Source: Paenisporosarcina antarctica (GTDB lineage Bacteria; Bacillota; Bacilli; Bacillales_A; Planococcaceae). Taken from it: 64,000 nucleotides of DNA. The DNA lies in NCBI RefSeq assembly GCF_004367585.1, contig NZ_CP038015.1, forward strand, positions 2,362,001 through 2,426,000, in the 5' to 3' direction. A program made the translations under genes and the position numbers. Each line of letters begins with the position of its first letter. Within the stretch, counting starts at the first letter, position 1. The notes under the pieces were generated by a model, which saw only the letters and a program-made list of their open reading frames with translations, had not been told where the DNA came from and did no database searches. Below, in pieces: positions 7,141-59,567 of the stretch.

Positions 7141-7161
7141 CGCGAATACGGGATAAACGAC
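7141..7161. repeat. Single degenerate unit of the 21-nt intergenic repeat family
   Basis: The sequence CGCGAATACGGGATAAACGA (plus one base) matches the family pattern CGyGAATATnAGATAA seen as tandem copies at six other places in the window. Only one clear unit is present here. Confidence 0.45.
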
Positions 7162-7164
7162 AAA

Positions 7165-7192
7165 CCCCCTCACTTCAATAAAAGTGAGAGGG
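7165..7192 (-). terminator. Terminator of the GntR/PatA/RocB-like operon
   Basis: An 11-bp stem with one G-U pair (CCCTCTCACTT and AAGTGAGGGGG on the minus strand) starts 11 bases after the stop codon. It is followed by TTTG, so the U-tract is short. Confidence 0.65.
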
Positions 7193-7202
7193 TCATTTTG
7201 AA

Positions 7203-8816
7203 TTATATTTTTTCACATAGTACAGATTTAATCATGTTTTCGAGAATTTGAGGTACTTCTACGAAGGCGCTTTGCATTTGCAAGCGTTCGGTACGTCTGT
7301 GGGCATCTTTTCCGAATGGGCCAACGTTTAACACTGGTGCTTGAAGCTCACGCATTTCATTAAATGGAATGGTGTAGGTATCTCCCCAAACAGGCGTGTT
7401 GGCTTCAAACACTTGCCATCCACCGCTATTATCATCGTAGTTCACATAACTTAAGTCGGAAATACCGTTAAAGTAATGAATACGTTTTATGGATCGATTA
7501 AAATTTCTAGCTCCAAATTCTTTGACAAATTTGACACATTCTTCTACTAACGGATTATTGCTTGAGTTAACCGCTGGATAGTATGGAGGTGCGTAAAGTA
7601 AAACCATTGCTGGGGCTAGTTCTTGGCAATGTATCATTAGAGTATCTATAATGCGGAAAGATTTTTCACGATCATCCATTTCGTAATTTTCGCTAACCGT
7701 CATTTTTACTGTTTGCACATACTCCTCGCCGAATTTACTAACAGCATGCTTTAATAAATCATCATATCGCATGACGCTTATATTTCCCACTGGCCTTACG
7801 CCTTCACGAGAACAAATCATTTGGTAACTTGCATTACATTCATCTGCTGCTTTAATAGCGACTTGTTCGAATAAATCCATGATTTCAGCTGCATTACGTT
7901 TCATTAAGAACACATTGTATAATGCAGTAGCTCGATATGGAGTCTGTGCAGAATACTCCATTTTCAAGTCTTTTTGTTGGAGTGACACGGGTAAAGGCAT
8001 CTTTTCACCTAGAACGGTCTCTTGGAATATAGGATTGTATTCCATATGTTGAGTTAAGAAAGCAGCAATATAGTTTGCAGAGATACCGCTTAAAGGCTCG
8101 CCCACATGTGTTTCCATTCCATAAAAAAAGGCGGACGGCATGATTTTACCAATTGATCCTGAATAAAGATAATATTTATCGTCACCAGGTTGTTGCGCGA
8201 ATACTGGCTCACTATTTAGAAAAAGTTTATAAGAAAGGTCGTGTTGAGTGCGCAACTCAATTAATTTTGATACTGCCGCTCTCATCCCTAAACTATTCGT
8301 CTCTTCATCCGGGACAGTCAATAAAATGAGGTTTATTGGCCACTGTTCTTTACTCGCTTTTTCAATTAATCCCATGTGTAAAACAAGACCCATTTTCATA
8401 TCCATCGTCCCTCGACCGAATAAATAATTGCCCGATTCTAGGTCAATACGTGCTTCATCTGGTAATTCGTTCTTCCGCTCAAAAAATGCTTTTGTTAACA
8501 TTTCTGGTTCACATGCCAATATTTCCAAATCTCCATATTCTTCGGTATTGACTGTATCAAAATGGCTTAGTAACACAATTGTTTCCTTTGCCTGAGGATG
8601 TATATATAATGCTGTAAGAAATTTCCTACCCAGGTCAGCATCTGTCAGTTCTATTTGTTCTGGATGAGCTTGAAAGTAAGGAATATCTTGCAATTTCGAT
8701 TGAACTTTGAATGGAAATTCACGCTCTCCATCTGATAAAGTCATACTTTTCCAACTAACCACTTCATTTAGTAATGCACGAAGGGCTTCTGGTGTTGACC
8801 ACATAAGTTTTGTCAT
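7203..8816 (-). CDS. rocB: M20-family metallohydrolase, RocB-like
   Basis: 537 residues, close to RocB of Bacillus (about 565), whose biochemical reaction is not established. M20 zinc-site motifs are visible: LLSHFDTV (metal His and catalytic Asp), GRGTMDMKMG (bridging Asp) and TVPDEETNS (the Glu-Glu pair with the general base). A lid/dimerisation insert lies in the middle. RBS GGGAG is nine bases before ATG. It is the last gene of the operon, 94 bases after the PatA-like gene. RocB is tied to arginine/ornithine breakdown in Bacillus, but here the neighbours are a GntR regulator and an aminotransferase rather than rocD/rocF, so the substrate may differ. Confidence 0.7.
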   Translation of the reverse strand: MTKLMWSTPEALRALLNEVVSWKSMTLSDGEREFPFKVQSKLQDIPYFQAHPEQIELTDADLGRKFLTALYIHPQAKETIVLLSHFDTVNTEEYGDLEILACEPEMLTKAFFERKNELPDEARIDLESGNYLFGRGTMDMKMGLVLHMGLIEKASKEQWPINLILLTVPDEETNSLGMRAAVSKLIELRTQHDLSYKLFLNSEPVFAQQPGDDKYYLYSGSIGKIMPSAFFYGMETHVGEPLSGISANYIAAFLTQHMEYNPIFQETVLGEKMPLPVSLQQKDLKMEYSAQTPYRATALYNVFLMKRNAAEIMDLFEQVAIKAADECNASYQMICSREGVRPVGNISVMRYDDLLKHAVSKFGEEYVQTVKMTVSENYEMDDREKSFRIIDTLMIHCQELAPAMVLLYAPPYYPAVNSSNNPLVEECVKFVKEFGARNFNRSIKRIHYFNGISDLSYVNYDDNSGGWQVFEANTPVWGDTYTIPFNEMRELQAPVLNVGPFGKDAHRRTERLQMQSAFVEVPQILENMIKSVLCEKI

Positions 8817-8910
8817 GATGCTAATCTCCCTAGTATGAATTTTACTGTAAATATAGACGTCTTATTTGATGTGCGTTTGAAAAGTATCGATGACTTTAAA
8901 ATCATGCACT

Positions 8911-10092
8911 TTAAACTATTTTCCCAACTACTTCTTTTCTTAATGTTGCGATGTATGCTTCCATACGATCCATGCCTTTAACTAGCACAGGCATTGCATA
9001 CGCGTAAGAAATCCGTATGAAACCTTCACCATATTTACTAAATGCACTACCTGGAACACAAGCAACTCCACCTTCTTTTAGAAGTCTTGTTGCAAATTCG
9101 AATGAAGGTAAACCAAATTCTTTAATAGAAGGAAAAATGTAAAAAGCACCGTTTGGTTTAACAACATTTAGCCCCATAGCTAGTAGACGAGTATAAATAT
9201 AATCTCGACGTACCATGTACTCTTTATTCATTTCAGCAGGTACACTGCTACTTTTTCCAAGTGCTTCAATCGCTGCATATTGGCTTGGTAATGGTGCACA
9301 TACTGAATTATATTGGTGAATTTTAATACAATGTTGGATGAGTCCTTCAGGTCCTAGCAAAAACCCTATGCGCCAACCAGTCATAGAATGCGATTTTGAT
9401 AACCCATGAATAATAAATAAGCGATCGCTTAGTTGTGGATATGATGCGAATGAACGGTGTTGTCCTTCAAACGTATTTTCACTATAAATTTCATCAGATA
9501 ATATATATATTTCATGCTCTTTTAAGACATTTGCTAATGCATCCATTTTCTTTGAATCAATGGTGACACCAGTTGGGTTTGATGGGAGATTAAATAAGAC
9601 CGCCTTCGTCTTCTCTGTAATTAACCCTTTTAAACGCTCGGGATCAGGTTCAAAGCCTGTATCGGAAGTATCAAGATACTTTATCTTTGCGCCGCACATC
9701 GTGATAAGTGGAGCGTACCCTGGATAGCAAGGCGCCGGCAAAATGACTTCGTCTCCGTCTTCCAATATCGTTCTAAAAACAGCGTCGATGGCTTCGCTTG
9801 CGCCAATCGTGATGATGATTTCGCTGTCTGCTTTATACGTGAATTGATACTTTTCAGTGAAGAATTGACTGACTGCTTTCCGCAGTTCAATTAGCCCAGC
9901 GTTATGGGAGTACCCCGTTAAGTTGTTCGTAATTGCAGTAATCCCCGCTTGTTTCACGCGTTCTGGTGTTGGGAAGTCTGGTTGGCCAATGGTTAAATTG
10001 ACTGCGTCAGGATAATGAATAAGTTGATTGGAAAATTGGCGAATACCTGAAACTTCAATCTTAGTAATGCGTTCGTTTATTGTAAGTGGCAT
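8911..10092 (-). CDS. patA: PLP-dependent aminotransferase class I, PatA-like
   Basis: 393 residues, cytosolic fold-type I aminotransferase. Closely resembles B. subtilis PatA from memory: EVSGIRQFSN, LTIGQPDFPTPE, IIITIGASEAIDAVFRTIL, NLPSNPTGVT, ILSDEIYSE and GLSKSHSMTGWRIGFL, with the Schiff-base lysine at Lys233. PatA is assigned to N-acetyl-LL-diaminopimelate aminotransfer in lysine/DAP synthesis. Here it sits between a GntR-FCD regulator (six bases upstream) and a RocB-like hydrolase, which fits inducible amino-acid catabolism better, so I hold the biosynthetic role loosely. Confidence 0.8.
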   Translation of the reverse strand: MPLTINERITKIEVSGIRQFSNQLIHYPDAVNLTIGQPDFPTPERVKQAGITAITNNLTGYSHNAGLIELRKAVSQFFTEKYQFTYKADSEIIITIGASEAIDAVFRTILEDGDEVILPAPCYPGYAPLITMCGAKIKYLDTSDTGFEPDPERLKGLITEKTKAVLFNLPSNPTGVTIDSKKMDALANVLKEHEIYILSDEIYSENTFEGQHRSFASYPQLSDRLFIIHGLSKSHSMTGWRIGFLLGPEGLIQHCIKIHQYNSVCAPLPSQYAAIEALGKSSSVPAEMNKEYMVRRDYIYTRLLAMGLNVVKPNGAFYIFPSIKEFGLPSFEFATRLLKEGGVACVPGSAFSKYGEGFIRISYAYAMPVLVKGMDRMEAYIATLRKEVVGKIV

Positions 10093-10098
10093 TGATCT

Positions 10099-10758
10099 TT
10101 AACCCTCCTCATAGTAATGAAGAAATCTTCTTTCAATATTATCCATATGTTCGTGCATGGCTTTTCTTGCAGCGAGCTCGTTTTGTTTTTCAAGAGCAGT
10201 TATTATATCTTGATGTTCTCCGCTCGCTTCCATTGCAGAAATAGGGTATGTATTTGCAAGAATTAAAAAGGCACGATTGACACCTGTATTAATAGTATGA
10301 ATCATTTCACACAACTTTATATTAGGATTTTGATCAGCGAGTAGTAAATGAAATTCACAATCAAGTTTAATAAAGTCATGAAAATCATTATTTTCAGCTG
10401 CATTTTTTTGAAGTTTTAGGTTTTCTTTTAAGTTTATTAAAAATTTCGGTGTCACATGTTGAACTACTTGCTCCACATTGTAAGTTTCTAGTAATTTACG
10501 CACTTCCATTTGATGAAGTGCATCTTCTTTTGTGAAGGACGAAACAGTTGCAGGCTTACCTGTTTGTAAGATGACCAATCCATCAGTTGCTAATCTTCGA
10601 ATCGCTTCACGAAGTGGTGTCCGACTTATCCCAAGTTCCATCGCAAATTTTTCTTCTGGCAATTCTTCACTGGGGGCTAGTTTACCTAGTAGTATATCTT
10701 TACGAATTAAATCATATGCTTGATCCGCGAGCGATTCAGGTTTTTTGATTTTTCTCAA
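10099..10758 (-). CDS. GntR-family transcriptional regulator with FCD domain
   Basis: 219 residues. The winged-helix domain (about 10-75) shows ADQAYDLIRKDILLGKLAPSEEL and the recognition segment LGISRTPLREAIRRL. The FCD effector domain (about 85-210) has the spaced acidic and His residues (EFHLLLAD, ASGEHQDIITALE) that bind metal and a carboxylic acid ligand in this class. It starts with TTG, supported by AAGGA seven bases upstream. First gene of the operon; probably autoregulates through the palindrome at 10788-10805. Confidence 0.88.
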   Translation of the reverse strand: MRKIKKPESLADQAYDLIRKDILLGKLAPSEELPEEKFAMELGISRTPLREAIRRLATDGLVILQTGKPATVSSFTKEDALHQMEVRKLLETYNVEQVVQHVTPKFLINLKENLKLQKNAAENNDFHDFIKLDCEFHLLLADQNPNIKLCEMIHTINTGVNRAFLILANTYPISAMEASGEHQDIITALEKQNELAARKAMHEHMDNIERRFLHYYEEG

Positions 10759-10787
10759 CGTGGTTTCCTTCTTTTCAAAAATTATTG

Positions 10788-10805
10788 TATTCTGTATACA
10801 GTATA
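10788..10805. promoter_or_regulatory. Palindromic operator, probable GntR-FCD binding site
   Basis: TATTCTGTATACAGTATA is symmetric at 8 of 9 half-site positions around a perfect CTGTATACAG core. It lies 29 bases upstream of the gntR start and just downstream of the -10 below, where a bound repressor would block initiation. The assignment to the adjacent regulator is inferred. Confidence 0.6.
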
Positions 10806-10810
10806 TGCGG

Positions 10811-10839
10811 ATTATAGCTTAGAAAGCTCTTAATGTATA
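10811..10839 (-). promoter_or_regulatory. Candidate sigma-A promoter of the gntR operon
   Basis: On the minus strand TATACA (10834-10839) and a perfect TATAAT (10811-10816) are spaced by 17 bases. The palindromic operator begins about six bases after the -10. Confidence 0.55.
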
Positions 10840-11096
10840 GTGGAGAAATTTAAGAGTCGATTATTATTTGCATTAGTGGGAATTTTCCAGCTAACAGCTA
10901 CTACCTGGCAGCAATTCTCAGCTCTAATTGATGTATATGTCTTCCAATTGTTGTGCGTTCTCTTCTTTTATAGCTATAATCTAGTAACGATATGCTTCTT
11001 CTGAATACTTTAGATAATCTCCGATATAGTGCGCTGACAGCAACATATACTTTGGCGAACCAAATAACACGATGTTCGTATGTTCAAATTATGTGG
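10840..11096. other. Non-coding spacer
   Basis: This is the promoter-distal part of the 675-base divergent gap between the gntR operon and the XRE regulator. A 62-codon minus-strand frame at 11010-11198 overlaps the repeat units and has no RBS or recognisable composition. I see nothing else here. Confidence 0.5.
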
Positions 11097-11108
11097 TTCA
11101 CGTGAATT

Positions 11109-11150
11109 CGTGAATACTATATAAGTGTGGACGAATATCAGATAATCCTC
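11109..11150. repeat. Two tandem units of the 21-nt intergenic repeat family
   Basis: The units CGTGAATACTATATAAGTGT (11109-11129) and GACGAATATCAGATAATCCT (11130-11150), each 21 nt with one further base, sit head to tail. A weaker possible unit precedes them. They match the reverse complement of the four units at 21351-21434. Confidence 0.65.
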
Positions 11151-11433
11151 TATTAAATTTCCCGCCAGACAACTCAAAGTTAATCTCTGATATCCCAACG
11201 TGAGTAAGGCATAATGCTAAGATGCCCTATACGAGCCACAAATTCGCGTATTTTTGGTTAGGACTGTCTTCCGTTCATTTTTATTGTATTTAAGAGTGTT
11301 TGGTAATTGTGTCTTAAAATAAAATACAGAATGTTTAATAATTAAGAATATTTACTATATATCTGACTTACTTTAAAAAAATGTTGTAAACTAGGAGATA
11401 GATGTATTACTAATTGGAAGGAGGTTTGAATAA

Positions 11434-12021
11434 ATGGACTTTCCAAAAGAAGAAGTTGGTAAGCGTATAAGAATTTTACGAAAATCGCGTGGATTTACTG
11501 CGGATGATTTAGCGAAAAAAATAGGGGTCAGCCAAAGTATGATTTCTCAAATAGAGCGTGGACTAGTGTCTCCTTCTTTGGACACCTTATGGAAAATGAG
11601 TCACTGTTTAAAATTGCCAATTTCCGCTTTTTTCGAAGAAGATAATCAACAACATGTAACTGTTTTCCGTGAAAATGAGCGTTTTGAGTTGAAAAAGATG
11701 CGTCCAAATATAACTTATCAACCTCTGTCACCGAGTAATGGCAAAGAAATCAGCTTATTCAAATTGATATTGGATCCTGGTGAAACTTTGGATAACCCAT
11801 TAATGTTTCATATGGGTGAAGAATGCGGCTACGTACTATCTGGAACTATTCGTGTAACAGTGGACGGTCAATCATACGAGCTTCATCAAGGGGATAGCAT
11901 TTACTTTGATAGCAATCTTCCACATAATTTTGTAAATGTGAGTCCAACTATCTCGACAGCTATTTGGGCCATGACACATCCTTTTGAAACTTTTCTGAAT
12001 CCCACTCGTATACATAAGTAA
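11434..12021 (+). CDS. XRE-family regulator with C-terminal cupin domain
   Basis: 195 residues. The HTH is at about 8-65 (GKRIRILRKSRGFTADDLAKKIGVSQ, then MISQIERGLVSPSLDTLWKM). The cupin barrel is at about 110-185 (GEECGYVLSGTIRV, QGDSIYFDSNLPHNF), with His and Glu at the usual cupin ligand positions. Such proteins (SinR/PuuR-like HTH plus cupin) sense small molecules, often amino-acid or polyamine derivatives. The start has GGAGG nine bases upstream. The next gene follows after 25 bases, so they may be co-transcribed. Target and ligand are unknown. Confidence 0.88.
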   Translation: MDFPKEEVGKRIRILRKSRGFTADDLAKKIGVSQSMISQIERGLVSPSLDTLWKMSHCLKLPISAFFEEDNQQHVTVFRENERFELKKMRPNITYQPLSPSNGKEISLFKLILDPGETLDNPLMFHMGEECGYVLSGTIRVTVDGQSYELHQGDSIYFDSNLPHNFVNVSPTISTAIWAMTHPFETFLNPTRIHK

Positions 12022-12046
12022 TGGATTAATTAGGAGGTATATTATT

Positions 12047-12280
12047 ATGTTATTAAAAAACCCTGGTATTGCCGCGGTATTAAGTTTCTTTTGGACCGGT
12101 GTCGGGCAAATATATAATGGTCAAATTGTGAAAGGCTTAATTTTAATTCTCGTGCAACTTATCAATTCAGCCTTAATGTTCGTATTAATTGGATTTATTA
12201 CCTTTCCGCTTGTTTGGATTTGGGGAATCTATGACGCTTACAAAGTTGCAGATAGAATGAATAAAAACGGTTCATACTAA
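12047..12280 (+). CDS. Small membrane protein, TM2-domain-like
   Basis: 77 residues with two hydrophobic stretches (about 7-24 and 29-62). The pattern NPGIAAVLSFFWTGVGQIYNGQ, followed by WIWGIYDAYKVADRMN, matches the TM2/short membrane family found widely in Firmicutes. Function unknown. RBS AGGAGG is present nine to ten bases upstream. It lies in one probable operon with the XRE-cupin gene. Confidence 0.75.
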   Translation: MLLKNPGIAAVLSFFWTGVGQIYNGQIVKGLILILVQLINSALMFVLIGFITFPLVWIWGIYDAYKVADRMNKNGSY

Positions 12281-12338
12281 CCACTCCCATTTTGGGGCCA
12301 CTGCTTTCGTTTTTAAAATTTGTAAGTATGTTTAAATT

Positions 12339-12384
12339 AAAAAAGGCGACATTTCGTTCTATTTTGAACGGAATGTCGCCTTTT
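12339..12384. repeat. Hairpin at the end of a transposase relic (copy 1)
   Basis: A 19-bp stem with one G-U pair (12341-12359 and 12366-12384), opening AAAAGGCGACATTTCGTTC, closely matches the hairpin at 60976-61017. Each lies immediately beyond a relic of the same protein end. It may also terminate the TM2-like gene transcript. Confidence 0.65.
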
Positions 12385-12410
12385 CTTTCGTATTTCTTAC
12401 TCTGCTACCT

Positions 12411-12497
12411 TCAGTAAGGAAAAATTCGTTTGAGGTTTACGGCAAATAGCGTCATGGCTCCTTGCATCTGCACAACGATATCGTAAATCGCCTTGGG
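12411..12497 (-). pseudogene. C-terminal fragment of a transposase-like gene (copy 1)
   Basis: The minus strand has an in-frame stop just before and encodes PKAIYDIVVQMQGAMTLFAV, then NLKRIFPY and stop. The pattern QGAMTLFAVNLKRI resembles the end of DDE transposases of IS1182/IS4-like type; the family is not settled. A second relic at about 61020-61092 reads AIFAVNL in the same context, next to the same hairpin. Confidence 0.5.
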
Positions 12498-12557
12498 CTA
12501 AGGTTTAAAGATTCTTGAGTGGAAAGGCGGGGGCACATTCTGTGAGATTTTAAACAG

Positions 12558-12733: not shown

Positions 12734-12740
12734 ATTCGAC

Positions 12741-14801: not shown

Positions 14802-14807
14802 GTTTTT

Positions 14808-14838: not shown

Positions 14839-14857
14839 AAACATTGGGGGATTATAT

Positions 14858-15593: not shown

Positions 15594-15636
15594 TATTATC
15601 CCGTATTTCCGGGGGATATTTCTTATTGGTAGTCAT

Positions 15637-15678
15637 TTATCTGAAATTCACGCAAATATATCAATCTAAAAATTGATA
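15637..15678. repeat. One or two units of the 21-nt intergenic repeat family
   Basis: TTATCTGAAATTCACGCAAA (plus one base, 15637-15657) fits the family pattern TTATCTnATATTCrCG. The following 21 bases fit only loosely. The rest of 15485-15857 is AT-rich and contains a TATAAT at about 15814 that could serve brnQ. Confidence 0.5.
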
Positions 15679-21290: not shown

Positions 21291-21332
21291 AACCCTTCTG
21301 GCACATTTGCCAGAAGGGTTTTTGTTTTTGTG
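21290..21332 (+). terminator. Terminator of the MurE-like gene
   Basis: A perfect 13-bp stem (AAACCCTTCTGGC with complement), then TTGTTTTTG. The first stem base is the last base of the TGA stop codon. Confidence 0.88.
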
Positions 21333-21350
21333 GGCTGTTGCATTATAAGG

Positions 21351-21434
21351 ATATCTGGCATTCATCGTGGGTTATCTCATATTCACAATATTTTATCTGA
21401 TATTCGCGAACACTTATCTAATATTCACGTTTGG
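21351..21434. repeat. Four tandem units of the 21-nt intergenic repeat family
   Basis: Units of exactly 21 nt start at 21351 (ATATCTGGCATTCATCGT...), 21372 (TTATCTCATATTCACAAT...), 21393 (TTATCTGATATTCGCGAA...) and 21414 (TTATCTAATATTCACGTT...). This is the clearest array of the family. Two short plus-strand frames over it (21330-21515 and 21490-21795) have no RBS and are not taken as genes. Confidence 0.75.
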
Positions 21435-21545
21435 CGCACACAATTTGATCGTGAAAGAAAGATGTCACTTGGGTCCTTGATATTGGCAGATGCTAGACAT
21501 AGATGCCTTGAATGAAGAAAAAACCTATTTAAGCTTATCATATAA

Positions 21546-33725: not shown

Positions 33726-34991
33726 ATGGACGAGCAAAAAAAACGTAAATGTTGTAATTGTTCAACATGCAAAGCAAGACGAGGTCCTAGAGGATTCACC
33801 GGTCTTCAAGGATATGCAGGACCACCAGGTGAACGCGGTGAAAGAGGACCACGAGGCTATATGGGATTTCAAGGAGCACCTGGAGCTAAAGGTGATACCG
33901 GCTCTCAAGGAGAAACTGGGTTACAAGGGGATATCGGACCTCAAGGGGACCCGGGTGTTAATGGTGATACCGGCTCTCAAGGAGAAACTGGGTTACAAGG
34001 GGATATCGGACCTCAAGGGAACCCGGGTGTTAATGGTGATACCGGCTCTCAAGGGGATACTGGGTTACAGGGGGACATCGGACCTCAAGGGGACTCGGGT
34101 GTTAAAGGTGATACCGGCTCTCAAGGAGAAACTGGGTTACAAGGGGATATCGGACCTCAAGGGGACCCGGGTGTTAATGGTGATACCGGCTCTCAAGGAG
34201 ATACTGGGTTACAAGGGGATATCGGACCTCAAGGGGACCCGGGTGTTAATGGTGATACCGGCTCTCAAGGGGAAACTGGGTTACACGGGGATATCGGACC
34301 TCAAGGGGACCCGGGTGTTAATGGTGATACCGGCTCTCAAGGGGATACTGGGTTACAAGGTGATATCGGACCTCAAGGGAACCCGGGTGTTAAAGGTGAT
34401 ACCGGCTCTCAAGGGGAAACTGGGTTACAAGGTGACATCGGACCTCAAGGGGAAACTGGGTTACAAGGGGATATCGGACCTCAAGGGGAAACTGGGTTAC
34501 AAGGGGATATCGGACCTCAAGGTAAAAAAGGTTTACAAGGAAAAACTGGATCTAAAGGTAAACCAGGGATATCTGGCGGAATTGCAGAATTTGCCCATAT
34601 TTACAACACAGACATCCAACGTTTATCAAAAGATGAATCTCTCAAATTTAACTCTAATGGTATCCTAACCGAAGGCTTTTTGCATAATGAAGGTGAAGGA
34701 AGCATTGTCGTTAAAAAAGCTGGAATTTATGAAATTATTTTTCAAGTGTCTGCACGCCACCAAAATCAATTCACTCTTTTTGCTAATGGCGTAGCTATTC
34801 CTAATAATACTTTCAGTTCAAATATCGAGAACCCACAAAATAATGGCTTGACCATCCTTTCATTAGCCTCAAACAGCGAACTCACTTTACGAAACCTTAC
34901 TTTAACAACTACCTATATAGACCTACAAACAGATTTAGTTAGCAATGAAATCCTTGTAAATGCTTCTTTGACAATAAAAAAACTTTCTTAA
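33726..34991 (+). CDS. Collagen-like repeat protein, BclA-like spore surface candidate
   Basis: 421 residues from the ATG at 33726 (GAGGTG six bases upstream). The N-terminus is basic and Cys-rich (KKRKCCNCSTCKARRG), with no signal peptide. A continuous Gly-X-Y region of about 265 residues follows, including seven 24-residue units (GDTGSQGETGLQGDIGPQ, GDPGVN) and four 12-residue units. The C-terminal part of about 135 residues (AEFAHIYNTD ... NASLTIKKLS) resembles the trimeric BclA/C1q-like domain. Such proteins form hair-like filaments of the exosporium or spore surface in Bacillus; location here is inferred. Monocistronic. Confidence 0.85.
   Translation: MDEQKKRKCCNCSTCKARRGPRGFTGLQGYAGPPGERGERGPRGYMGFQGAPGAKGDTGSQGETGLQGDIGPQGDPGVNGDTGSQGETGLQGDIGPQGNPGVNGDTGSQGDTGLQGDIGPQGDSGVKGDTGSQGETGLQGDIGPQGDPGVNGDTGSQGDTGLQGDIGPQGDPGVNGDTGSQGETGLHGDIGPQGDPGVNGDTGSQGDTGLQGDIGPQGNPGVKGDTGSQGETGLQGDIGPQGETGLQGDIGPQGETGLQGDIGPQGKKGLQGKTGSKGKPGISGGIAEFAHIYNTDIQRLSKDESLKFNSNGILTEGFLHNEGEGSIVVKKAGIYEIIFQVSARHQNQFTLFANGVAIPNNTFSSNIENPQNNGLTILSLASNSELTLRNLTLTTTYIDLQTDLVSNEILVNASLTIKKLS
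33891..34524 (+). repeat. 72-bp tandem repeat array with 36-bp terminal repeats inside the collagen gene
   Basis: Units begin at 33891, 33963, 34035, 34107, 34179, 34251, 34323 and 34395 with the common start GGTGATACCGGCTCTCAAGG, exactly 72 bp apart. The last one breaks down into four 36-bp units ending about 34520. Differences between copies are few, so the array is probably length-variable between strains. Confidence 0.9.
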
Positions 34992-44323: not shown

Positions 44324-44583
44324 TTATAATTTCCTCCCTTTTCCGTATATAAAAATTTCAACAAGTCTAATTATACATAATTATCGAAACATTTTGGCTG
44401 TTAAAATGAAAAGGCTTACTAATACGTATTAAATAAACAGAAAATATACTTAAAGTAGAGTAATTCATACATTAAGAACCAATTAAAGGAAAAGGTAATT
44501 GTATCCATATTACAAATCCCCCCTAAATACATATCATCCACTGCAAATGACAAAATTCTTGCACGTTCAAATTGTGTTTATTA

Positions 44584-44646
44584 CGTGAATACTAAATAAA
44601 TATTTATGAAATCGAGATATATACCCGTGAATGCAAGATAGATCTC
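44584..44646. repeat. Three tandem units of the 21-nt intergenic repeat family
   Basis: Units begin at 44584 (CGTGAATACTAAATAAAT...), 44605 (TATGAAATCGAGATATAT...) and 44626 (CGTGAATGCAAGATAGAT...), exactly 21 nt apart. The orientation is opposite to the array at 21351. A weaker unit may precede them at 44564. The remaining 44324-44820 shows only a terminator. Confidence 0.7.
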
Positions 44647-53548: not shown

Positions 53549-55167
53549 AAACAGTCGCTACACTACTTGTCCAACATTTACAGTCATTTCAAGTTACACA
53601 CGCATTCGGAATCCCTGGTAAAGCAGTCGTTCCACTTCTCCTTGCGATGGAAAAGAGCAATCTTGAGTTCGTTTTAAGCAGACACGAATCTGGTGCTGGC
53701 TTTATGGCAGGTGGTTATTCACGACAAAACCATACACTCGGGGTTGCAATCGGCACTTCAGGACCAGGCGGCACAAACTTGCTGACAGCGGCTGGACAAG
53801 CAAAGGCCTTTCACTTACCCGTCCTTTTCATTACAGGTCATCCATCTGTCAAAGAATCGGGGCGCGCAATGGGTCAAGATTCTAGTATCTTTGGAACAGA
53901 TCTGGTCAAAATGTTCGAACCCGTTACCCTATTTAGTGCGAGAGTCGAGCGTGGTGACCAATTTGAGATGTACTTTCAACATGCACTTGATCATGCATTA
54001 ACCGGACGTAAGGGACCCGTTCATTTATCTATTCCTGCAGATGTACTCATGCAAGAAATTGAACCATTCACACTGTCTTTACCGAACCTAAAACTTCCCG
54101 TATCACCTTACATGAATGAAGTGAAATTCTTACTTGAACAAGCAAAAAAACCTCTCCTTTTCCTTGGGAAAGGTGTACATATTTCACGAGCTTATGATGA
54201 AGTAAAGAATCTATCGCTTCAATATAATCTGCCAGTCATCACAACACCTGGAGGAAAAGGCACGATTTGCAGTGATCATCCAGGTTACTTGGGACCATTT
54301 GGTTTAGGTGGAACGCAAGCCGCAAGTGACTATATGAATGATGGTGTCGATTTATTAATTGTCGTCGGAACTAAACTTACCGACATGACTTTACCTGGAT
54401 TTACAAAAGCTATGTATCCAAAACAAGTCATTCAATTTGACATGGAATCTACGTTTGTAGGCAAATCAATACCAGTTCCAACCTTGTCGGTCATTGGAGA
54501 CGCAAAAGTTAATATACAAGCGATTCTTGACCCTGCTTTCCTTGAAACCGCAGCAGCAACTATATTCGTTGAAAAAGATAAAATATACGTTCTTCCTCCA
54601 ACTGATGAAAAACTGTCAGCCGTTACTGCAATTAACTTAATGCGCAAACACTTACCAGCAGAGACCATTCTGTTTGGCGACGATGGCAGTCATACTTTTT
54701 ACGCAATCCAACATTTTGATATTGAACAACCAGGTACATTCTTTTCGGACGATATTTTTGGTACAATGGGTCATGCAATTGGATACGCAATTGGGGCAAA
54801 ATTTGCAAACCCTCAGCAAGACATTGCCTGCTTAACAGGGGACGGTTGTATGATGATGCATGGTTCAGAAATTTCTGTTGCCGTATGCCATGACTTACAA
54901 ATTCCATTTATCGTCTTCAATAATGGTCGTCTCGACATGGTTGATAAAGGAATGCGCTACAACTTGGGACGCTCAGTGGGTACAGTTTATGAAGCTCCTG
55001 CAAACTTGAGTCTATTTGGAGAATCACTTGGTGCAGCAGCATTCCGTTGCTTTACAGCACACCAAATCGAAGAAGCACTTGTCTTTGCAAAGACCTATAA
55101 TGGACCAACTGTCATTGAAATAATGGTAGATCCTGAAGAAATTCCACCCACTTTAAAACGTGGCTAA
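53545..55167 (+). CDS. ThDP-dependent enzyme of the acetolactate synthase/benzoylformate decarboxylase family
   Basis: 540 residues, three domains: PYR (1-165) with the catalytic Glu48 in SRHESGAGF, a central domain (190-340), and the PP domain with the ThDP/Mg motif GDGCMMMHGSE...FNN (432-460). The general fold is IlvB/AlsS-like. No ilvN or alsD is nearby. The start ATG overlaps the GGDEF-EAL stop (ATGA), implying coupled translation. The reaction (acetolactate synthesis, decarboxylation or lyase) cannot be decided from sequence. Confidence 0.82.
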   Translation: MKTVATLLVQHLQSFQVTHAFGIPGKAVVPLLLAMEKSNLEFVLSRHESGAGFMAGGYSRQNHTLGVAIGTSGPGGTNLLTAAGQAKAFHLPVLFITGHPSVKESGRAMGQDSSIFGTDLVKMFEPVTLFSARVERGDQFEMYFQHALDHALTGRKGPVHLSIPADVLMQEIEPFTLSLPNLKLPVSPYMNEVKFLLEQAKKPLLFLGKGVHISRAYDEVKNLSLQYNLPVITTPGGKGTICSDHPGYLGPFGLGGTQAASDYMNDGVDLLIVVGTKLTDMTLPGFTKAMYPKQVIQFDMESTFVGKSIPVPTLSVIGDAKVNIQAILDPAFLETAAATIFVEKDKIYVLPPTDEKLSAVTAINLMRKHLPAETILFGDDGSHTFYAIQHFDIEQPGTFFSDDIFGTMGHAIGYAIGAKFANPQQDIACLTGDGCMMMHGSEISVAVCHDLQIPFIVFNNGRLDMVDKGMRYNLGRSVGTVYEAPANLSLFGESLGAAAFRCFTAHQIEEALVFAKTYNGPTVIEIMVDPEEIPPTLKRG

Positions 55168-55247
55168 TTCACATACAGGATTATCAATAGATTAACTATG
55201 GTTTAGCATGCCAAGCACATGACATAACCTAAAGAATTACAGAGACT

Positions 55248-55280
55248 AGCGATGTGAATCTTTCACATCGCTTCCTTTCT
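55248..55280 (+). terminator. Terminator of the GGDEF-EAL/ThDP operon
   Basis: A perfect 11-bp stem AGCGATGTGAA/TTCACATCGCT followed by TCCTTTCT, 80 bases after the stop. Confidence 0.65.
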
Positions 55281-55336
55281 ATCAGGCAGGTAATCATCTT
55301 GCATTAACACCCAACCTCCCCTCTCTCCCGACTTTA

Positions 55337-55441
55337 CGCGAAGAGTTGATATAGGATGCGAATTTCAGATAAACACTAATGAATTTAGATATACACAACT
55401 GAATACATACGAAATAAACCACCTTGAATTCTAGATATTCA
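55337..55441. repeat. Four to five tandem units of the 21-nt intergenic repeat family
   Basis: Units start at 55337, 55358 (GCGAATTTCAGATAAACACT...), 55379 (ATGAATTTAGATATACACAA...), 55400 and 55421, each 21 nt. They have the same orientation as the copies at 44584 and lie between the ThDP-enzyme terminator and the ATP-grasp gene. The rest of 55281-55544 holds no gene. Confidence 0.65.
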
Positions 55442-55544
55442 CACGCGTAATGAAGACCTTCCCTTTCCCTCTAACTTCGTGCAAGTTGACCAATAGTCTA
55501 GTTATCCTATAGGATTAATTATAGAAAAATAGGAGGACAATTAT

Positions 55545-56498
55545 ATGACTAAAGTTTATATACTTCATGAAAACAGTGAATGGACCGTCCATTTAACAAA
55601 AAGACTTGAAGAACTAAAGGTACCTTATGAAGAATGGCATCTCGATCAAGGTATAGTCAATCTTACTGAGGCTCCACCTGAAGGAATTTTCTACAATCGC
55701 ATGAGTGCCTCTTCCCATACGCGAAATCATCGATACGCACCCGAACTCACTTCCGCCGTATTAGCGTGGCTTGAGCACCATGACCGTACCATTTTCAACG
55801 GTAGCAATGCTCTTAGACTCGAACTGAGCAAAGTTCTCCAGTACACTGCATTAGAAGCTTCAGGAATCAAGACTCCGAAAACCATTGCTGCTGTCGGCAA
55901 AGAACAAATTATTAAAGCTGCGCATGAATTAGGAGAAACCTCCTTTATTACCAAACACAACCGTGCCGGCAAAGGTCTTGGAGTTCAACTCTTTCACACA
56001 ATTGAAAGCTTACGAACATATATTGAAGGTTCAACTTTTGAAGAACCTGTCGATGGAATCACTTTGATTCAACAGTATATCCAAGCACCACAACCCTACA
56101 TTACACGTTGCGAATTCATTAATGGTAAATTCCAATATGCAGTAAAAGTCGACACTTCAGAAGGCTTTGAATTATGCCCTGCAGATGCTTGCCAAATTGA
56201 CGACATGTTCTGTCCCGTTGGTGAAACGGAATCAAATTTAGAACAACCGAAATTTCAAATCATCGAAAACTTTAATGAAACCATCATTGAAAAGTATGAG
56301 CAATTCCTTAAACAAAACCAAATTAAAGTAGCCGGTATAGAATTCATTCGTGACTCAAATGGTGAATTCTACACGTACGACGTTAACACCAACACTAACT
56401 ACAATGCCGATGCCGAAAAACTAGCCGGTAAATATGGTATGTTGCAACTAGCAATAGCCTTAAAAGCAGAACTTGAAAAAAACTACACCAAAGCCTAA
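55545..56498 (+). CDS. RimK-like ATP-grasp ligase
   Basis: 317 residues. ATP-grasp layout: N-terminal alpha/beta part (1-95), ATP-binding with TSFITKHNRAGKGLGVQLF (Lys and Gly-rich loop) at about 128-150, and the Mg-binding end EFIRDSNGEFYTYDVNTNTNYN at about 262-285, in which D and N-x-N are the metal ligands. Such enzymes join a carboxylate to an amine (as RimK does with glutamate) using ATP. RBS GGAGG is nine bases upstream. Monocistronic. Substrate not evident. Confidence 0.8.
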   Translation: MTKVYILHENSEWTVHLTKRLEELKVPYEEWHLDQGIVNLTEAPPEGIFYNRMSASSHTRNHRYAPELTSAVLAWLEHHDRTIFNGSNALRLELSKVLQYTALEASGIKTPKTIAAVGKEQIIKAAHELGETSFITKHNRAGKGLGVQLFHTIESLRTYIEGSTFEEPVDGITLIQQYIQAPQPYITRCEFINGKFQYAVKVDTSEGFELCPADACQIDDMFCPVGETESNLEQPKFQIIENFNETIIEKYEQFLKQNQIKVAGIEFIRDSNGEFYTYDVNTNTNYNADAEKLAGKYGMLQLAIALKAELEKNYTKA

Positions 56499-56540
56499 TT
56501 TGGTTAATTGACAGAAATAAATACCCCTTTAAGAAAATGC

Positions 56541-56570
56541 AGCGGCCTTGAATAAACGGTCGCTCTTTTG
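56541..56570 (+). terminator. Terminator of the ATP-grasp gene
   Basis: AGCGGCC, a 10-base loop and GGTCGCT with one G-U pair, followed by CTTTTG, 43 bases after the stop. Confidence 0.6.
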
Positions 56571-56732
56571 CTGTTGAATTCATTAACATGAATTTACATC
56601 TCCTGTAAGTACGTCACAGTTGTGCCCGGTACACCGTTTCACATATTTTTGTATGCTTCCCATAGGCATACCTAGGTTACTACTCATCAATTCGTGATAA
56701 ACTAAAAACATCAGAACAGGAGTGATTACTAA

Positions 56733-57395
56733 ATGCGCGTAGCTATTTTTGACTTTGACGGAACACTGTATCCACAAGAAACCTATAAACTGATGATGAA
56801 TTATCTAAAGAAACATCCTATCCATTCAACTAAATATCAACCTTTTTATCGAGCTCTCATGAAGCCTTATCTTGCCTATAAAATGAAAATATACCCTGAA
56901 AACAAAATGAAAGCAAAATCGATGCAACTCTATTTAGATGCCTTAAAAGGTTTGCATCAACAAGAAATAGAAACATATTTTGAAGACATGTCAAAAGAAA
57001 TGCGCAACGAACTTAACCAATCAGTTGTCGATCGCTTACAAAAGCATCTAATTGAAGGAGATCATGTCCTGCTCGTATCCGGTGCATTCACGCCTATGCT
57101 TAACGAAGTAACGCGTGACTTAGCAATTCATAACGTAATTGGGACAGAAATACCTATGAGTAATGGCATATTAGACACTAACAAAGCCATTTACCATATT
57201 CAAGGTGAACGCAAAAATGAAATGATTGAAAAAGCACTACAAGGACTAGATATCGACTGGAAAAACAGTTCAGCATATGGCGACAGTATTTCAGATATAA
57301 CTGTACTTGAGCTCGTCGGCAACCCAGTAGCAGTCCGTCCCGAATCACGCCTAAGAGCAGTCGCAGAAAAAAGAAAATGGGAAATCCTCTGGTAG
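56733..57395 (+). CDS. HAD-superfamily phosphatase, subfamily IB (SerB-like)
   Basis: 220 residues. HAD motif I FDFDGTLYP (Asp8 nucleophile, Asp10), motif II LLVSGAFTP, motif III Lys in HIQGERKNEMIEK, motif IV YGDSISDITVL. The helical cap insertion is type C1. IB members remove phosphate from small molecules such as phosphoserine. The substrate cannot be read. AGGAG lies 10 bases upstream of ATG. Confidence 0.85.
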   Translation: MRVAIFDFDGTLYPQETYKLMMNYLKKHPIHSTKYQPFYRALMKPYLAYKMKIYPENKMKAKSMQLYLDALKGLHQQEIETYFEDMSKEMRNELNQSVVDRLQKHLIEGDHVLLVSGAFTPMLNEVTRDLAIHNVIGTEIPMSNGILDTNKAIYHIQGERKNEMIEKALQGLDIDWKNSSAYGDSISDITVLELVGNPVAVRPESRLRAVAEKRKWEILW

Positions 57396-57424
57396 CACTT
57401 AAAGCTAAAAGAGTCTGGTAGCCC

Positions 57425-57440
57425 ATCACCGGTGCTGGAA
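57425..57440. repeat. 16-nt sequence shared with 14649-14664
   Basis: ATCACCGGTGCTGGAA is identical in both places. Here it is 30 bases after the HAD phosphatase gene. The remaining spacer to 57631 has no coding signal. Confidence 0.35.
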
Positions 57441-57631
57441 GAAGCGAATCGAAAGAGCTTGTTGGTCTGTTCAACTTGACACGACGAAAAGTGGAGAAGC
57501 CCATTTAATCCTCTAAACCATTTTTGGAGTCTGAAATGGAGCCTGAGAGCTGGATTACGGAGTTAGACATAAAGAAATGCGAGAGCGATAAGGACTTATG
57601 GTAAAATAAAATAAAAAAGGAAGTACTTATT

Positions 57632-57850
57632 ATGAAACGCTTTAGCTTCATCATTCCCATCATGTTAATCGTCGCCATACTTGCAATGTGGATCTTAAAT
57701 AAAAATCACTCACAAGTCCCCTTTGATACACGAATAATAATCGCAGCTGGCGGGTCTATTGTATCAGGTATCGTTGCATTCTTTTTACTCAGAAATGATG
57801 TTCATAAAATAGATTCAAAACCAATTGAACCCAACAAAAAGAAGCGTTAA
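57632..57850 (+). CDS. Small two-helix membrane protein, unknown
   Basis: 72 residues: helix 1 about 4-22 (FSFIIPIMLIVAILAMWIL), helix 2 about 34-53 (IIIAAGGSIVSGIVAFFLL), and a basic C-terminal tail ending KPIEPNKKKR, expected to face the cytoplasm. RBS AAAGGA is upstream and a terminator downstream, so it seems real. No family recognised. Confidence 0.65.
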   Translation: MKRFSFIIPIMLIVAILAMWILNKNHSQVPFDTRIIIAAGGSIVSGIVAFFLLRNDVHKIDSKPIEPNKKKR

Positions 57851-57928
57851 ATACTTAAGGACTTCTCTCGAGAGGTGCAAAACACGAAATCAAGTCCCAA
57901 ACCTCAATTTAAAACGAAATGATTTTAG

Positions 57929-57951
57929 CATCGCTTTTAGCGGTGTTTTTT
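57929..57951 (+). terminator. Terminator of the 72-residue membrane protein gene
   Basis: CATCGCT, TTT loop, AGCGGTG (one G-U), then TTTTTTG, 78 bases after the stop. Confidence 0.8.
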
Positions 57952-58104
57952 GTTATTTTATTACATAAATACAAAATATAGAAACCTGTGATACACTTAG
58001 TTTATCTAAGTTCACTAAATAATCATATTTCTTATTCAACTAACGGAAAACGATTATGTAAGAACGATTAGAAAAGAAAAATTATTACTTGGGGGTATGA
58101 AAAC

Positions 58105-58302
58105 ATGAAAAATTCAGGAATACTTTTAGTTGGAATGTCTTTATTAACATTAGCATTGGTAATTGTTTTATCAAGAGTTGCTGAAGCAATATTTGTAATT
58201 AGTAAAGTTGATATAGGGCACGTAACACCTATTTTCGTTTATGTTCTAATAGGTATCGTCTTTTTATTAGGACTAATTTCTATATTAAATAAACAGAAGT
58301 AA
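58105..58302 (+). CDS. Small two-helix membrane protein, unknown
   Basis: 65 residues, almost entirely hydrophobic: helices at about 5-31 and 38-60, with a short loop VISKVDIGHVTP, ending NKQK. The GGGGG at about 58090-58094 lies 10 bases before ATG. A small protein of this type could be a membrane regulator, but nothing in the sequence says so. Confidence 0.6.
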   Translation: MKNSGILLVGMSLLTLALVIVLSRVAEAIFVISKVDIGHVTPIFVYVLIGIVFLLGLISILNKQK

Positions 58303-58329
58303 ATTATCCGTTTAAAGAAACGGATAATT
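58302..58329 (+). terminator. Hairpin at the end of the 65-residue protein gene
   Basis: A perfect 12-bp stem AATTATCCGTTT/AAACGGATAATT with a four-base loop, beginning at the last base of the stop codon. No U-run follows, so it may stabilise the mRNA end rather than terminate. Confidence 0.5.
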
Positions 58330-58535
58330 AGTTGAAGAAGTCATCTACAATCTTTCTCGATTAGATTATATTTGATTCAGTCGACTTATCAAGTTTCAAT
58401 CATTAACCTGCCATACCCATTTCGATACCTTTCGATGACAATATAATTAATGAAATACAACAACATGATCGTTCTTCCAAACTTTAAAAATATCGTGACA
58501 ATTTCAAGCATCTCTATTGATTTAAATGAAATTAA

Positions 58536-58573
58536 AAAAACACCTTATCACATACATGCGATAAAGTGTTTTT
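58536..58573 (-). terminator. Terminator of the NlpC/P60 gene
   Basis: A 14-bp stem with one mismatch (AAAAACACTTTATC on the minus strand) followed by TTTTTTT, 12 bases after the stop. Confidence 0.82.
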
Positions 58574-58584
58574 GAAATGTTCAT

Positions 58585-59082
58585 CTATTTTTTAGCTGCT
58601 ACCTGAGTTACTTTCGCCACACGTTTTGCACCCATATATTTTGAACCCCAATAGTACGGATCGTTAATTTTCGCTACTGAAACGCCTTTACTAGATGAAG
58701 AGTGTGCGAATTTCCCATTACCAATATAAATTCCTGCATGAGAAACGCCTCTACCTGAGGTATTGAAAAATACTACGTCACCAACTTTAAGATTTTTCTT
58801 CGCAACTGACTTGCCAGTTGCATACATACCACCAGTTGTTCTTGGCAATTTAACTCCAACTTTTTTATAAACATAACCAACAAATCCTGAACAATCGAAG
58901 CCTTTAGTTGAAGTACCGCCATAAACATATTTTGTTCCCATTACTTTATTTGCAACTGATGCAACTTGCGTAGATTTAACTCCATTTGCTGCATCTGCTA
59001 GATTAGCAAATGGTGCAATTACTAAAAATAAAGCAATTGTTAACATTGTTATGATTTTAAACAACTGAGATTGACGCTTCAT
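58585..59082 (-). CDS. Secreted NlpC/P60 cell-wall endopeptidase
   Basis: 165 residues. Signal peptide 1-31 (ends LADA-A), then directly the NlpC/P60 domain (40-155): Cys64 in GFDCSGFVGYVYKK, His115 in GVSHAGIYIG, His127 in KFAHSSS as third catalytic residue. No SH3 or LysM anchoring domain, so it is a minimal secreted enzyme that cleaves within peptidoglycan stem peptides. RBS GGAGG is upstream. Monocistronic. Confidence 0.9.
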   Translation of the reverse strand: MKRQSQLFKIITMLTIALFLVIAPFANLADAANGVKSTQVASVANKVMGTKYVYGGTSTKGFDCSGFVGYVYKKVGVKLPRTTGGMYATGKSVAKKNLKVGDVVFFNTSGRGVSHAGIYIGNGKFAHSSSSKGVSVAKINDPYYWGSKYMGAKRVAKVTQVAAKK

Positions 59083-59567
59083 AAGATAAATTCCTCCGGT
59101 TTGGGTAATAATTATAGTTATCTGTTAAATTAACTATTTTTATATTACCATGAATAAAATTTAAATTATTTTACAGTTATATTACAAGTTCATTACGAAT
59201 TACGACAAAATAAAGACATGATGTAACAAGTTGTTATATTTCTAAGAAAATAGCATACCCCATAAATTTCTCGGAAATAGGTAGAAAAAATTCTTATGCA
59301 GTAGAGGATAAATTAACGAATTTTTTCAATCGTCTTTATACTAATTAACGATAAATTGTATGTACAACGTAATTATTAAAGAAGTGTCCATTGTTCTCTA
59401 CTAAGAAAGCTACCTATGGCATTTGAAATTTAGATATACTCTATCGACTTTAGAAATCCACCAACGAATATAAGAAAATAACTTAACTAATAGTCTAGAT
59501 ACCTCTCTCCCCTTTTAACTGTTAAAATAGAGACAGTAATTAAAAACTAAAACTAAAGGAGAATTCC
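59083..59567. other. Divergent spacer between the NlpC/P60 gene and pgi
   Basis: AT-rich, 485 bases. It holds a TATAAT-like -10 on the minus strand at about 59112-59117 for the endopeptidase gene, without a clear -35, and the repeat units listed separately. I see nothing coding. Confidence 0.45.
59423..59485. repeat. Three degenerate units of the 21-nt intergenic repeat family
   Basis: Units at 59423 (TTGAAATTTAGATATACTCT...), 59444 (TCGACTTTAGAAATCCACCA...) and 59465 (CGAATATAAGAAAATAACTT...), all 21 nt. They are more diverged than the 21351 copies, but the phase is kept. Confidence 0.55.

Follow-up and report, generated by a model that had tools for sequence, protein, structure and literature searches.

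Short tandem arrays of 21-base units lie between the genes of Paenisporosarcina, and the locus studied here raises the question of what keeps their spacing nearly fixed while the unit sequence occurs in many versions. The window, i.e., the whole stretch of DNA analysed, comprises 64,000 nt of Paenisporosarcina antarctica (GCF_004367585.1, contig NZ_CP038015.1, positions 2,362,001-2,426,000, forward strand). An earlier note had described from its letters one degenerate unit that recurs between genes in strict 21-nt phase, and had proposed a protein-binding, bending or nucleoid function. The observation is real and is larger than that note saw, since about a dozen unit groups can be told apart, with its sequence (group or family A) among them; we sorted these groups by eye, and their names and core strings, A to M, are our own and likewise made by eye.

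The recurrence of the unit in the window is genuine. The 16-nt unit TTATCTAATATTCRCG has 12 matches there at up to three mismatches, whereas 100 shuffles averaged 2.1 and never exceeded 6. Family A occupies eight places, three on the plus strand and five on the minus strand, which bears out the reported occurrence of both orientations and argues against replichore polarity. Their features are as follows.

4319..4379, plus strand: family A element missed by the earlier note, two units plus terminal motif CACAATTTAAACGTAC.
7074..7161, minus strand: one clear unit (7136-7156) and a worn second, with terminal-like GCACAATATATCGTG.
11076..11145, minus strand: family A, two units (11125-11145 and 11104-11124), with terminal motif CACATAATTTGAAC.
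15596..15657, plus strand: worn copy of family A; the unit at 15637-15657 is clear and those preceding it are degenerate.
21351..21434, plus strand: four family A units spaced exactly 21 nt apart; the array passes the lag-21 scan.
21435..21456, plus strand: head (terminal) motif of the 21351 array, CACACAATTTGATCGTG.
44559..44578, minus strand: head (terminal) motif of the 44579..44641 array, AACACAATTTGAACGTGC.
44579..44641, minus strand: three family A units at spacings of 21 and 21; the array passes the lag-21 scan.
55352..55438, minus strand: worn family A array, unit starts 55438, 55417, 55392 and 55372, spacing read off as 21, 25 and 20.
59417..59478, minus strand: worn family A array, unit starts 59478, 59457 and 59437, spacing 21 and 20.

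The strict phase thus stands at 21351 (21351/21372/21393/21414), 44584 (44641/44620/44599, minus strand) and 11109 (11145/11124, minus strand), but not at 55337-55441 or 59423-59485; TRF gives a period of 20 for part of the 55352..55438 array. At 7141 and 15637, also named as array sites, there is one clear unit each and the rest is worn. Only two of the eight places pass the lag-21 scan, the remainder being worn copies, and the averaged autocorrelation of the window's intergenic DNA, too blunt a measure, is weakly raised at lag 21 (z 2.4, below lag 9). A terminal motif, approximately CACAYAATTTGAACGTG, continues four copies (21351, 44584, 11109 and G000:2500031). The 4319-4379 copy matches positions 1-62 of a profile, R1, built from other copies (E 7e-6, window alone), and part of it matches a profile at E 0.006 in the whole genome; R1 gives the 11076..11145 copy 50.5 bits, but this copy is part of the R1 training set. 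An inverted repeat with a T-run (about 7074-7115) lies at the head end of the 7074..7161 copy.

The periodicity extends well beyond the window. A scan of intergenic self-similarity at each lag, which uses no consensus and from which no regions were dropped, returned 18 lag-21 regions for the window's genome, of which 464 kb was covered, and counts of 23, 11, 21, 6 and 3 for stretches of four other Paenisporosarcina genomes. Other lags gave 0-4 in each case, apart from a sharp excess at 42, a multiple of 21. G002 and G008 are not independent, because they are near-identical; a further Paenisporosarcina genome, G001, had no lag-21 region in 80 kb, and similar-looking arrays are present in Planococcus. 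The 16-mer itself, at up to two mismatches, has 11 matches in the whole genome versus 6 for the reversed pattern, and six of these 11 lie inside the window, so the exact consensus has no excess outside it. A plain 16-mer consensus search of 61 genomes was set aside, as 25 had a match, the reversed control was similar and nothing distinctive emerged; the dispersed piece TTTTCTGTTAGT was not enriched in G000 (7 versus 12 for the control, at one mismatch). It is the wider lag-21 class, rather than the exact 16-mer, that is genome-wide.

What these arrays have in common is a build. Elements of about 100-260 nt hold up to about seven units each, and in the eight groups with at least six units the unit divides into a core, about 13 nt long, and a spacer of some 8 nt that is low in information. 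Core positions carry mostly 1-2 bits and spacer positions mostly 0-0.7 bits, the exceptions being positions 6-7 of A and several spacer positions of D, F, G and L. Together these two parts, of which the spacer is largely free in sequence, set a core-to-core distance of 21 bp, or about two turns of the DNA helix. In a sequence scan from which no arrays were dropped, ten cores gave 162 pairs 13-39 nt apart, with 131 at 21 nt, 22 at 20, one at 22 and eight elsewhere, whereas reversed cores gave two pairs at 21; the pairs are not independent, owing to tandem blocks and the overlapping cores B and H. Both 20- and 21-nt spacing occur within groups C and K.

For unit identity, as for TT spacing, flanking genes, terminators, flanking proteins, and information and folding, 58 of 64 arrays were used, six having been removed by matching nine AT-rich places named by eye. 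Pooled over groups, neighbouring units are identical at 1708 of 2275 core positions (75%) and 551 of 1400 spacer positions (39%; chance 25%), and units of different loci at 71% and 32%. The spacer is thus near chance in sequence and yet keeps its length, which supports the view that the phase reflects more than plain decay. The same figures bear on a reading as neutral or selfish dispersed minisatellites, in which one ancestral 21-nt array spread and diversified, and the period persists by inheritance and not by selection, as slippage can change an array only by whole units. Decay should erode core and spacer alike, and here the cores are kept; neighbouring units, moreover, are hardly more alike than distant ones, unlike the product of recent slippage. 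This reading does account for the distant likeness, by eye, of groups A, C, E and G, which share a T-rich start and a similar terminal motif.

It also gains from the comparison of G002 with G008 (98.2% identical). Of 20 indels of at least 15 nt, three fall within arrays and each is exactly 21 nt; unit numbers also differ between loci. Arrays change faster than other intergenic DNA in this pair (80/1964 versus 718/57623, after three regions had been removed by eye). Substitutions are only weakly lower in cores than in spacers (21/1217 versus 24/807, p 0.066), and the ratio of small indels to substitutions is not clearly reduced in arrays (6/80 versus 86/718; low power, one strain pair). Position is not kept either, with none of three array sites shared by the two species compared, and sites are species-specific in the few comparable places. 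Taken together, we regard the minisatellite explanation as a possible but somewhat doubtful one. A nucleoid or bending role is unsupported, given the unshared sites and the fast change in that one pair; TT steps do lie about 10-11 nt apart inside units, but this is weak evidence for bending, since two T clusters placed anywhere on a 21-nt circle will tend to show such a distance.

The arrays might alternatively encode a 7-residue repeat peptide, as 21 = 3 x 7 and a window ORF (21330-21515) spans the 21351 array. Single-base indels inside arrays between strains and the 20-nt units speak against this, and a common frame across groups is not expected; we give it almost no credence.

Orientation offers a further clue. 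One end, the head, is conserved in the well-preserved elements of A, C and E (approximately CACACAATTTGAACG in A, CACCCAATTT in C and E), and the opposite end fades into worn units, although D elements may have both ends distinct. The head often adjoins the T-run of an intrinsic terminator, and the hairpins vary between sites while the head is constant. The head and tail were compared at 31 loci, each represented by a single array, in groups A, C, E, G, H and K only. Within 95 nt, 14 loci have a terminator directed at the head and 5 have one directed at the tail, compared with 236 of 2000 random points (12-13%); the counts are 12 versus 3 at 60 nt and 23 versus 9 at 150 nt, and between codirectional genes (60 nt) 9/21 versus 0/21. 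The contrast is weaker once groups without a recognised head are included (17/45 versus 9/45 at 95 nt, Fisher p 0.10), and almost disappears (24 heads, 21 tails) in a less strict scan made earlier, in which T content set the orientation of 56 arrays. In a list of 50 heads, tandem copies included, a terminator was detected at 20; seven of its places were added by hand, and one (3059900) is mis-cut and holds coding DNA. The reported position near terminators is supported, and in groups with a recognisable head it is mainly this end that the terminator faces.

The gene context was read with long ORFs, not curated calls, as genes in the scanned stretches. Among loci with known flanks, 1 of 43 lies between divergent genes (about 19% expected), so arrays are rare there; in the window, two of the eight copies (11076..11145 and 59417..59478) are so placed. 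At codirectional loci the head faces a gene 3' end by 22 to 9. The 21351..21434 array sits between murE and a convergent peptidase C26 gene, and its nearest terminator, that of murE, is at the tail end; for the best array of the earlier note, this counts against placement of the terminator at the head.

Position behind terminators and the 22 to 9 bias towards gene 3' ends would also suit an RNA element, in which read-through past the terminator transcribes the array, and its repeated, single-stranded cores would then attract an RNA-binding or decay factor, or serve as a further termination region. It is not obvious, however, why RNA would favour a period of two DNA turns, and folding is unremarkable on either strand of the 58 arrays (mean z -0.26 and -0.54; arrays only, end modules excluded), with z below -2 in 5 of 58 on each. 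Rfam searches of nine loci gave four gathering matches, to four named families, all of which miss the arrays by their coordinates. A reading as RNA hairpins is unlikely, and we consider an RNA element in general distinctly so.

Transposon-end remnants were weighed as well, since Tn7-like and Mu-like ends consist of tandem transposase-binding sites, and such sites could be left by non-autonomous elements. Copies at several loci have array plus tail in common, tandem blocks of 236 and 264 nt occur, several unit groups could mean several transposases, and the terminator-side position would fit. Against this, the elements have one clear end only, and no transposase was found among the ten recurrent flanking proteins read. 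Viral contigs had no match to two exact patterns (C and E), nor did phage and plasmid records to one family A query. Neither of the marks of a MITE, target-site duplication and terminal inverted repeats, was established: the murE ortholog is array-free in L106 and L107, but the flanks are too diverged for a duplication to be read, and inverted pieces were seen, by eye, on either side of the 264-nt blocks. No clean whole-array insertion was seen between G002 and G008, where the ten size differences printed were unrelated insertions, assembly gaps, array-length changes and an E array set against other DNA; at G008 2867334 a C array falls within a stretch that is rearranged. We judge such an origin improbable.

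Parallels come from plasmids. Iterons and ParR-type centromere repeats are arranged directly, one every 20-22 bp or so (about two helical turns), each joining a conserved core to unconstrained bases, and lie at one origin or centromere beside the gene of their own protein. The arrays resemble iterons in repeat length, direct orientation and conserved core, but occupy many chromosomal intergenic sites; the flanking genes examined are ordinary and differ between sites, and no replication or partition protein gene was found among them. Bacterial group IIC introns target positions next to intrinsic terminators; the likeness is in position, the arrays differing in being about 100-260 nt long. REP/BIME and ERIC were dismissed, because they require a palindromic unit and the arrays have no inverted structure except one 13-nt, 77% inverted pair at 11106-11136. 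CRISPR was dismissed too, the 21-nt unit having a degenerate 13-nt core and no long identical repeats, and none of the flanking proteins inspected being encoded by a cas gene. Pneumococcal BOX elements (boxA-boxBn-boxC) are small dispersed composite intergenic non-coding repeats with transcripts predicted to form stem-loops, and SPRITE is a long hairpin with a U-rich tract (PMC3049150). The arrays are like BOX in being small, dispersed, intergenic and non-coding and in combining tandem units that vary in number with an end module of another kind, and unlike it in their ordinary folding, a unit length common to many cores and one clear end module. They share with SPRITE the tie to rho-independent terminators and gene 3' regions (PMC3049150), but follow hairpins that vary between sites, whereas SPRITE is itself the hairpin. 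The literature searched yielded nothing on such arrays, in keeping with the earlier remark that no named family is known for them.

The explanation that we favour, though tentatively and at a little under even confidence, is that these are small, dispersed, iteron-like arrays of putative binding sites behind intrinsic terminators, family A being one family of a likely superfamily in Paenisporosarcina. The cores may serve as docking sites for one or more sequence-specific DNA-binding proteins, as in plasmid iterons, and the period would be held because neighbouring bound proteins must share one helix face. Elements may spread by copying into terminator-adjacent DNA and would grow and shrink by unit-sized recombination, with binding specificity differing from group to group. 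The need for several proteins, or a loose one, to serve about a dozen cores counts against docking arrays, as do the mixed spacing in groups C and K, the only weak difference in substitution between cores and spacers, the fast change of the arrays and the weakened head-tail contrast once all groups are included.

A more specific version, which we think rather unlikely, is that related putative DNA-binding proteins, each with its own 13-bp core, form phased filaments on terminator-side arrays and so insulate neighbouring transcription units, the cores diversifying between species while the helical geometry is kept. It would involve roughly a hundred sites per genome, by extrapolation from the 44 loci seen in 1.42 Mb.

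Sequence is the usual basis on which dispersed bacterial repeats are defined. In these arrays it varies, whereas the period and the core/spacer split are common to them, and the constraint therefore seems geometric. The arrays look like an uncharacterised set of putative protein-docking arrays. If a protein reads them, they would amount to a system of phased sites spread over the whole chromosome and linked to the ends of transcription, in a genus that has been little studied; if none does, they would be a clean case of a tandem-repeat class that keeps its period while nearly all else changes.

The sequence singled out by the earlier note, TTATCTnATATTCRCG (family A), occurs intact or in worn form at eight places in the window, with one to five copies at each:

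21351-21434: family A array, phase exactly 21 nt
44579-44641: family A array, phase exactly 21 nt
11104-11145: family A copy, phase exactly 21 nt
55352-55438: worn family A array, spacings 21, 25 and 20 nt (read by eye)
59417-59478: worn family A array, spacings 21 and 20 nt (read by eye)
7141 and 15637: one clear family A unit each
4319-4379: further family A copy, found with a profile trained on the other copies

Allowing up to three mismatches, the window contains 12 unit matches, some of them isolated, chance-like singles elsewhere, against 2.1 expected and a maximum of 6 in 100 shuffles. The strict 21-nt phase claimed by the earlier note holds for the arrays at 21351, 44579 and 11104 and is lost at 55352-55438 and 59417-59478. 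A terminal motif, approximately CACAYAATTTGAACGTG, is common to the copies at 21351, 44584 and 11109 and to one at 2500031 in the same genome (G000). Since this motif follows the units, the element comprises a row of units with a distinct end, here called the head; the opposite end is the tail. The window also carries a 72-nt repeat at 33887-34522 (8.8 copies, 93% matches), within an ORF that looks like a collagen-like Gly-X-Y protein.

A profile built from two family A units and the end motif (R1) gave 24 matches at E ≤ 10 in the window's genome (3.97 Mb, two contigs), ten of these below 0.01. The ten consist of training copies, other window copies and an independent match at 2833698-2833760 (model positions 2-62, E 2.5e-4), which lies within a row of some six units carrying the end motif. 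Among 250 family genomes, searched with the stricter filters applied above 40 genomes, R1 was found at E ≤ 0.001 in four, all of the window's genus and its own genome among them. Searching with murE, the gene next to the best array, gives 24 loci at 57-82% identity, of which the first five are Paenisporosarcina (70-82%) and the remainder Planococcus and Planomicrobium. At this site the family A array is present in the window's genome only: two loci (L106, L107) show a short array-free interval, and in Paenisporosarcina sp. OV554 (L108, ~6600-6800, after murE) the same site holds a 21-nt array of another core, CCAAGTTGGAAA.

Self-similarity was also scanned without any consensus, at lags of 12 to 45 nt, an intergenic region being counted if at least 25 of 42 bases matched the base one lag onward.

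Intergenic regions self-similar at lag 21; at lag 42; at each other lag
G000 (window's genome), 464 kb: 18; 10; 0-4
G008: 23; 14; 0-3
G008, another 400 kb: 11; 4; 0-3
G002 (near relative of G008): 21; 14; 0-3
G004: 6; 2; 0-1
G005: 3 at lag 21; 0-2 at all others
Five named Paenisporosarcina loci: 3; 2; 0-1
Nineteen Planococcus/Planomicrobium loci, 220 kb: 2; 3; up to 2

Most lag-21 regions differ from the family A sequence. Samples of 80 kb gave no lag-21 region in G001, of the genus Paenisporosarcina, and, outside the genus, one each in G025 and G012 and none in G022, G026, G028, G023 and G024. The two Planococcus regions (L112:1283-1400 and L113:8038-8265) look like real arrays of other cores, each lying directly behind a terminator-like hairpin as judged by eye, and the class of 21-nt arrays may thus extend past one genus.

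Using cores defined by eye, 57 of 58 arrays were assigned to thirteen groups and one was left unassigned (A, 21 arrays; C, 9; E, 6; D, 5; H, F and L, 3 each; G, 2; five groups with one). In the eight groups with at least six units, positions ~1-13, the core, carry mostly 1-2 bits, with weak spots such as positions 6-7 of A, and positions 14-21, the spacer, mostly 0-0.7 bits, though D, F, G and L exceed this at some positions. Between neighbouring units, identity is 75% in the core and 39% in the spacer, and between units from different loci it is 71% and 32% (chance 25%). With the spacer near chance and the spacing nevertheless kept, unit length outlasts spacer sequence. When core pairs were sought irrespective of lag, 131 of 162 lay at 21 nt, 22 at 20 nt (13 C, 7 K, 2 B), one at 22 nt and eight at other spacings within 13-39 nt, these pairs being not independent owing to tandem blocks and overlapping cores; a reversed-core control gave two pairs at 21. 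Exact core pairs with a free gap of 0-24 nt were sought in 261 family genomes. Group C gave ten of 15 at 21 nt and five at 20 (G000 and G004) and group E six of six at 21 (G000 and G006), with no exact C or E pair in the remaining genomes and none for the reversed patterns in every row listed.

The retention of the core, the drift of the spacer and a spacing of about two helical turns across many unlike cores suggest a putative docking array, in which the cores would be protein docking sites ranged along one face of the DNA. Plasmid iterons have this same shape, a core/spacer array with two-turn spacing. The earlier note's view that the pattern is not the outcome of plain decay is borne out by these features, and protein-binding arrays are the likeliest reading, if a tentative one.

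The arrays are placed unevenly with respect to genes. Across 1.42 Mb, 44 separate intergenic loci comprised 31 codirectional, 11 convergent and one divergent, with one of unknown flanks. Because divergent regions make up ~19% of intergenic length, one in 43 is low (p 0.0017); adding the six window copies outside this list, two of them (11109, 59423) between divergent genes, gives 3/49 (p 0.017). No significant convergent excess was seen (p 0.16). The head faces a gene 3' end at 22 of the 31 codirectional loci (p 0.03), or at 24/35 once the window's four codirectional copies, evenly split in direction, are added (p 0.04), homologous direction being uncertain for groups D, F, J and M.

For groups A, C, E, G, H and K (31 loci), an intrinsic terminator within 95 nt pointed at the head in 14 loci (p 4e-6) and at the tail in five (p 0.41), compared with 236 of 2000 random intergenic points. 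Head and tail counts were 12 vs 3 within 60 nt and 23 vs 9 within 150 nt; at codirectional loci, the 60-nt counts were 9/21 and 0/21. The contrast is weaker across all groups (45 loci), with 14 vs 6, 17 vs 9 and 26 vs 14 at 60, 95 and 150 nt (Fisher p 0.07, 0.10 and 0.02). A looser scan took 56 arrays without merging those of one locus and used T content to orient them; counted by hand, it shows terminators at 24 heads and 21 tails, so that the polarity depends on knowing the head. The head itself recurs while the hairpins vary by site, TTTTTTATGGGGAAATTGGGTGAACGGG and TATTTATTGGGAATAATAGGGTGAACGGG, for example, following two unrelated stems. The earlier note's placement of the arrays near terminators is supported, with a head-side excess in the headed groups. 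At its best array, 21351, the murE terminator lies on the tail side, and a convergent terminator is 85 nt away from the head.

Arrays differ between species and between strains. Two stretches, one from G008, shared only 31 genes as reciprocal best hits; at six adjacent gene pairs whose intergenic DNA G008 shares, an array was present in one genome at three and in both at none. G002 and G008 are 98.2% identical over 386 kb, and their alignable DNA shows 20 indels of 15 nt or longer. Three of these measure exactly 21 nt and fall within arrays; several more (18, 19, 38 and 41 nt) touch arrays. The two genomes also differ in tandem array-plus-tail blocks. A 264-nt block of array, head and hairpins (L084:580-1560, G002:C1:1759256-1760236; and L085) has about four copies in G002 and six in G008. 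Inverted TTTTCTGTTAGT pieces flanking these blocks resemble the ends of a separate mobile repeat. C elements at four loci have array and tail in common for ~200 nt or longer, with 75-84% identity. The family D elements at four loci (G000 2468597, 2473360, 2500356 and 2517780) have their five units in identical order, with one motif at the start and an end motif near CTGAGC..CTCG, which suggests copying of whole elements. Selfish minisatellites with an inherited period would be the next explanation after binding arrays, and a rather doubtful one. Substitutions between G002 and G008 are faster in arrays (80/1964) than in other intergenic DNA (718/57623) in single-coverage alignments, in which 13 of the 27 arrays are well covered. 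Core positions in 17 arrays are substituted somewhat less often (21/1217) than spacer positions (24/807; p 0.066).

Two exact patterns (C, E) found no copy in viral contigs, nor did one family A query in phage and plasmid records. Ten flanking proteins, from six of the eleven listed groups recurring within 4 kb of arrays, included no transposase; we take them to be surface, transporter, regulator and enzyme-like proteins. Another dispersed intergenic repeat (~CTCCTGCGGTTACTCGTCGCAAAG) occurs at L003, L004 and L010 in G000 and at 2957005 and 2724998 in G008, where it also has tandem copies.

A literature search, with most subscription journals outside its reach, returned nothing describing these 21-nt arrays. 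In design, the pneumococcal BOX and SPRITE repeats come closest among the published families that we found. These are likewise dispersed, intergenic and modular or terminator-linked but, unlike the present arrays, have predicted folded RNA forms and one defined sequence per family (PMC3049150).

The terminator-side position of the arrays and their rarity between divergent genes fit either insertion at harmless sites or a role at transcription ends. G001, free of lag-21 regions in its sample, may provide a natural comparison within the genus.
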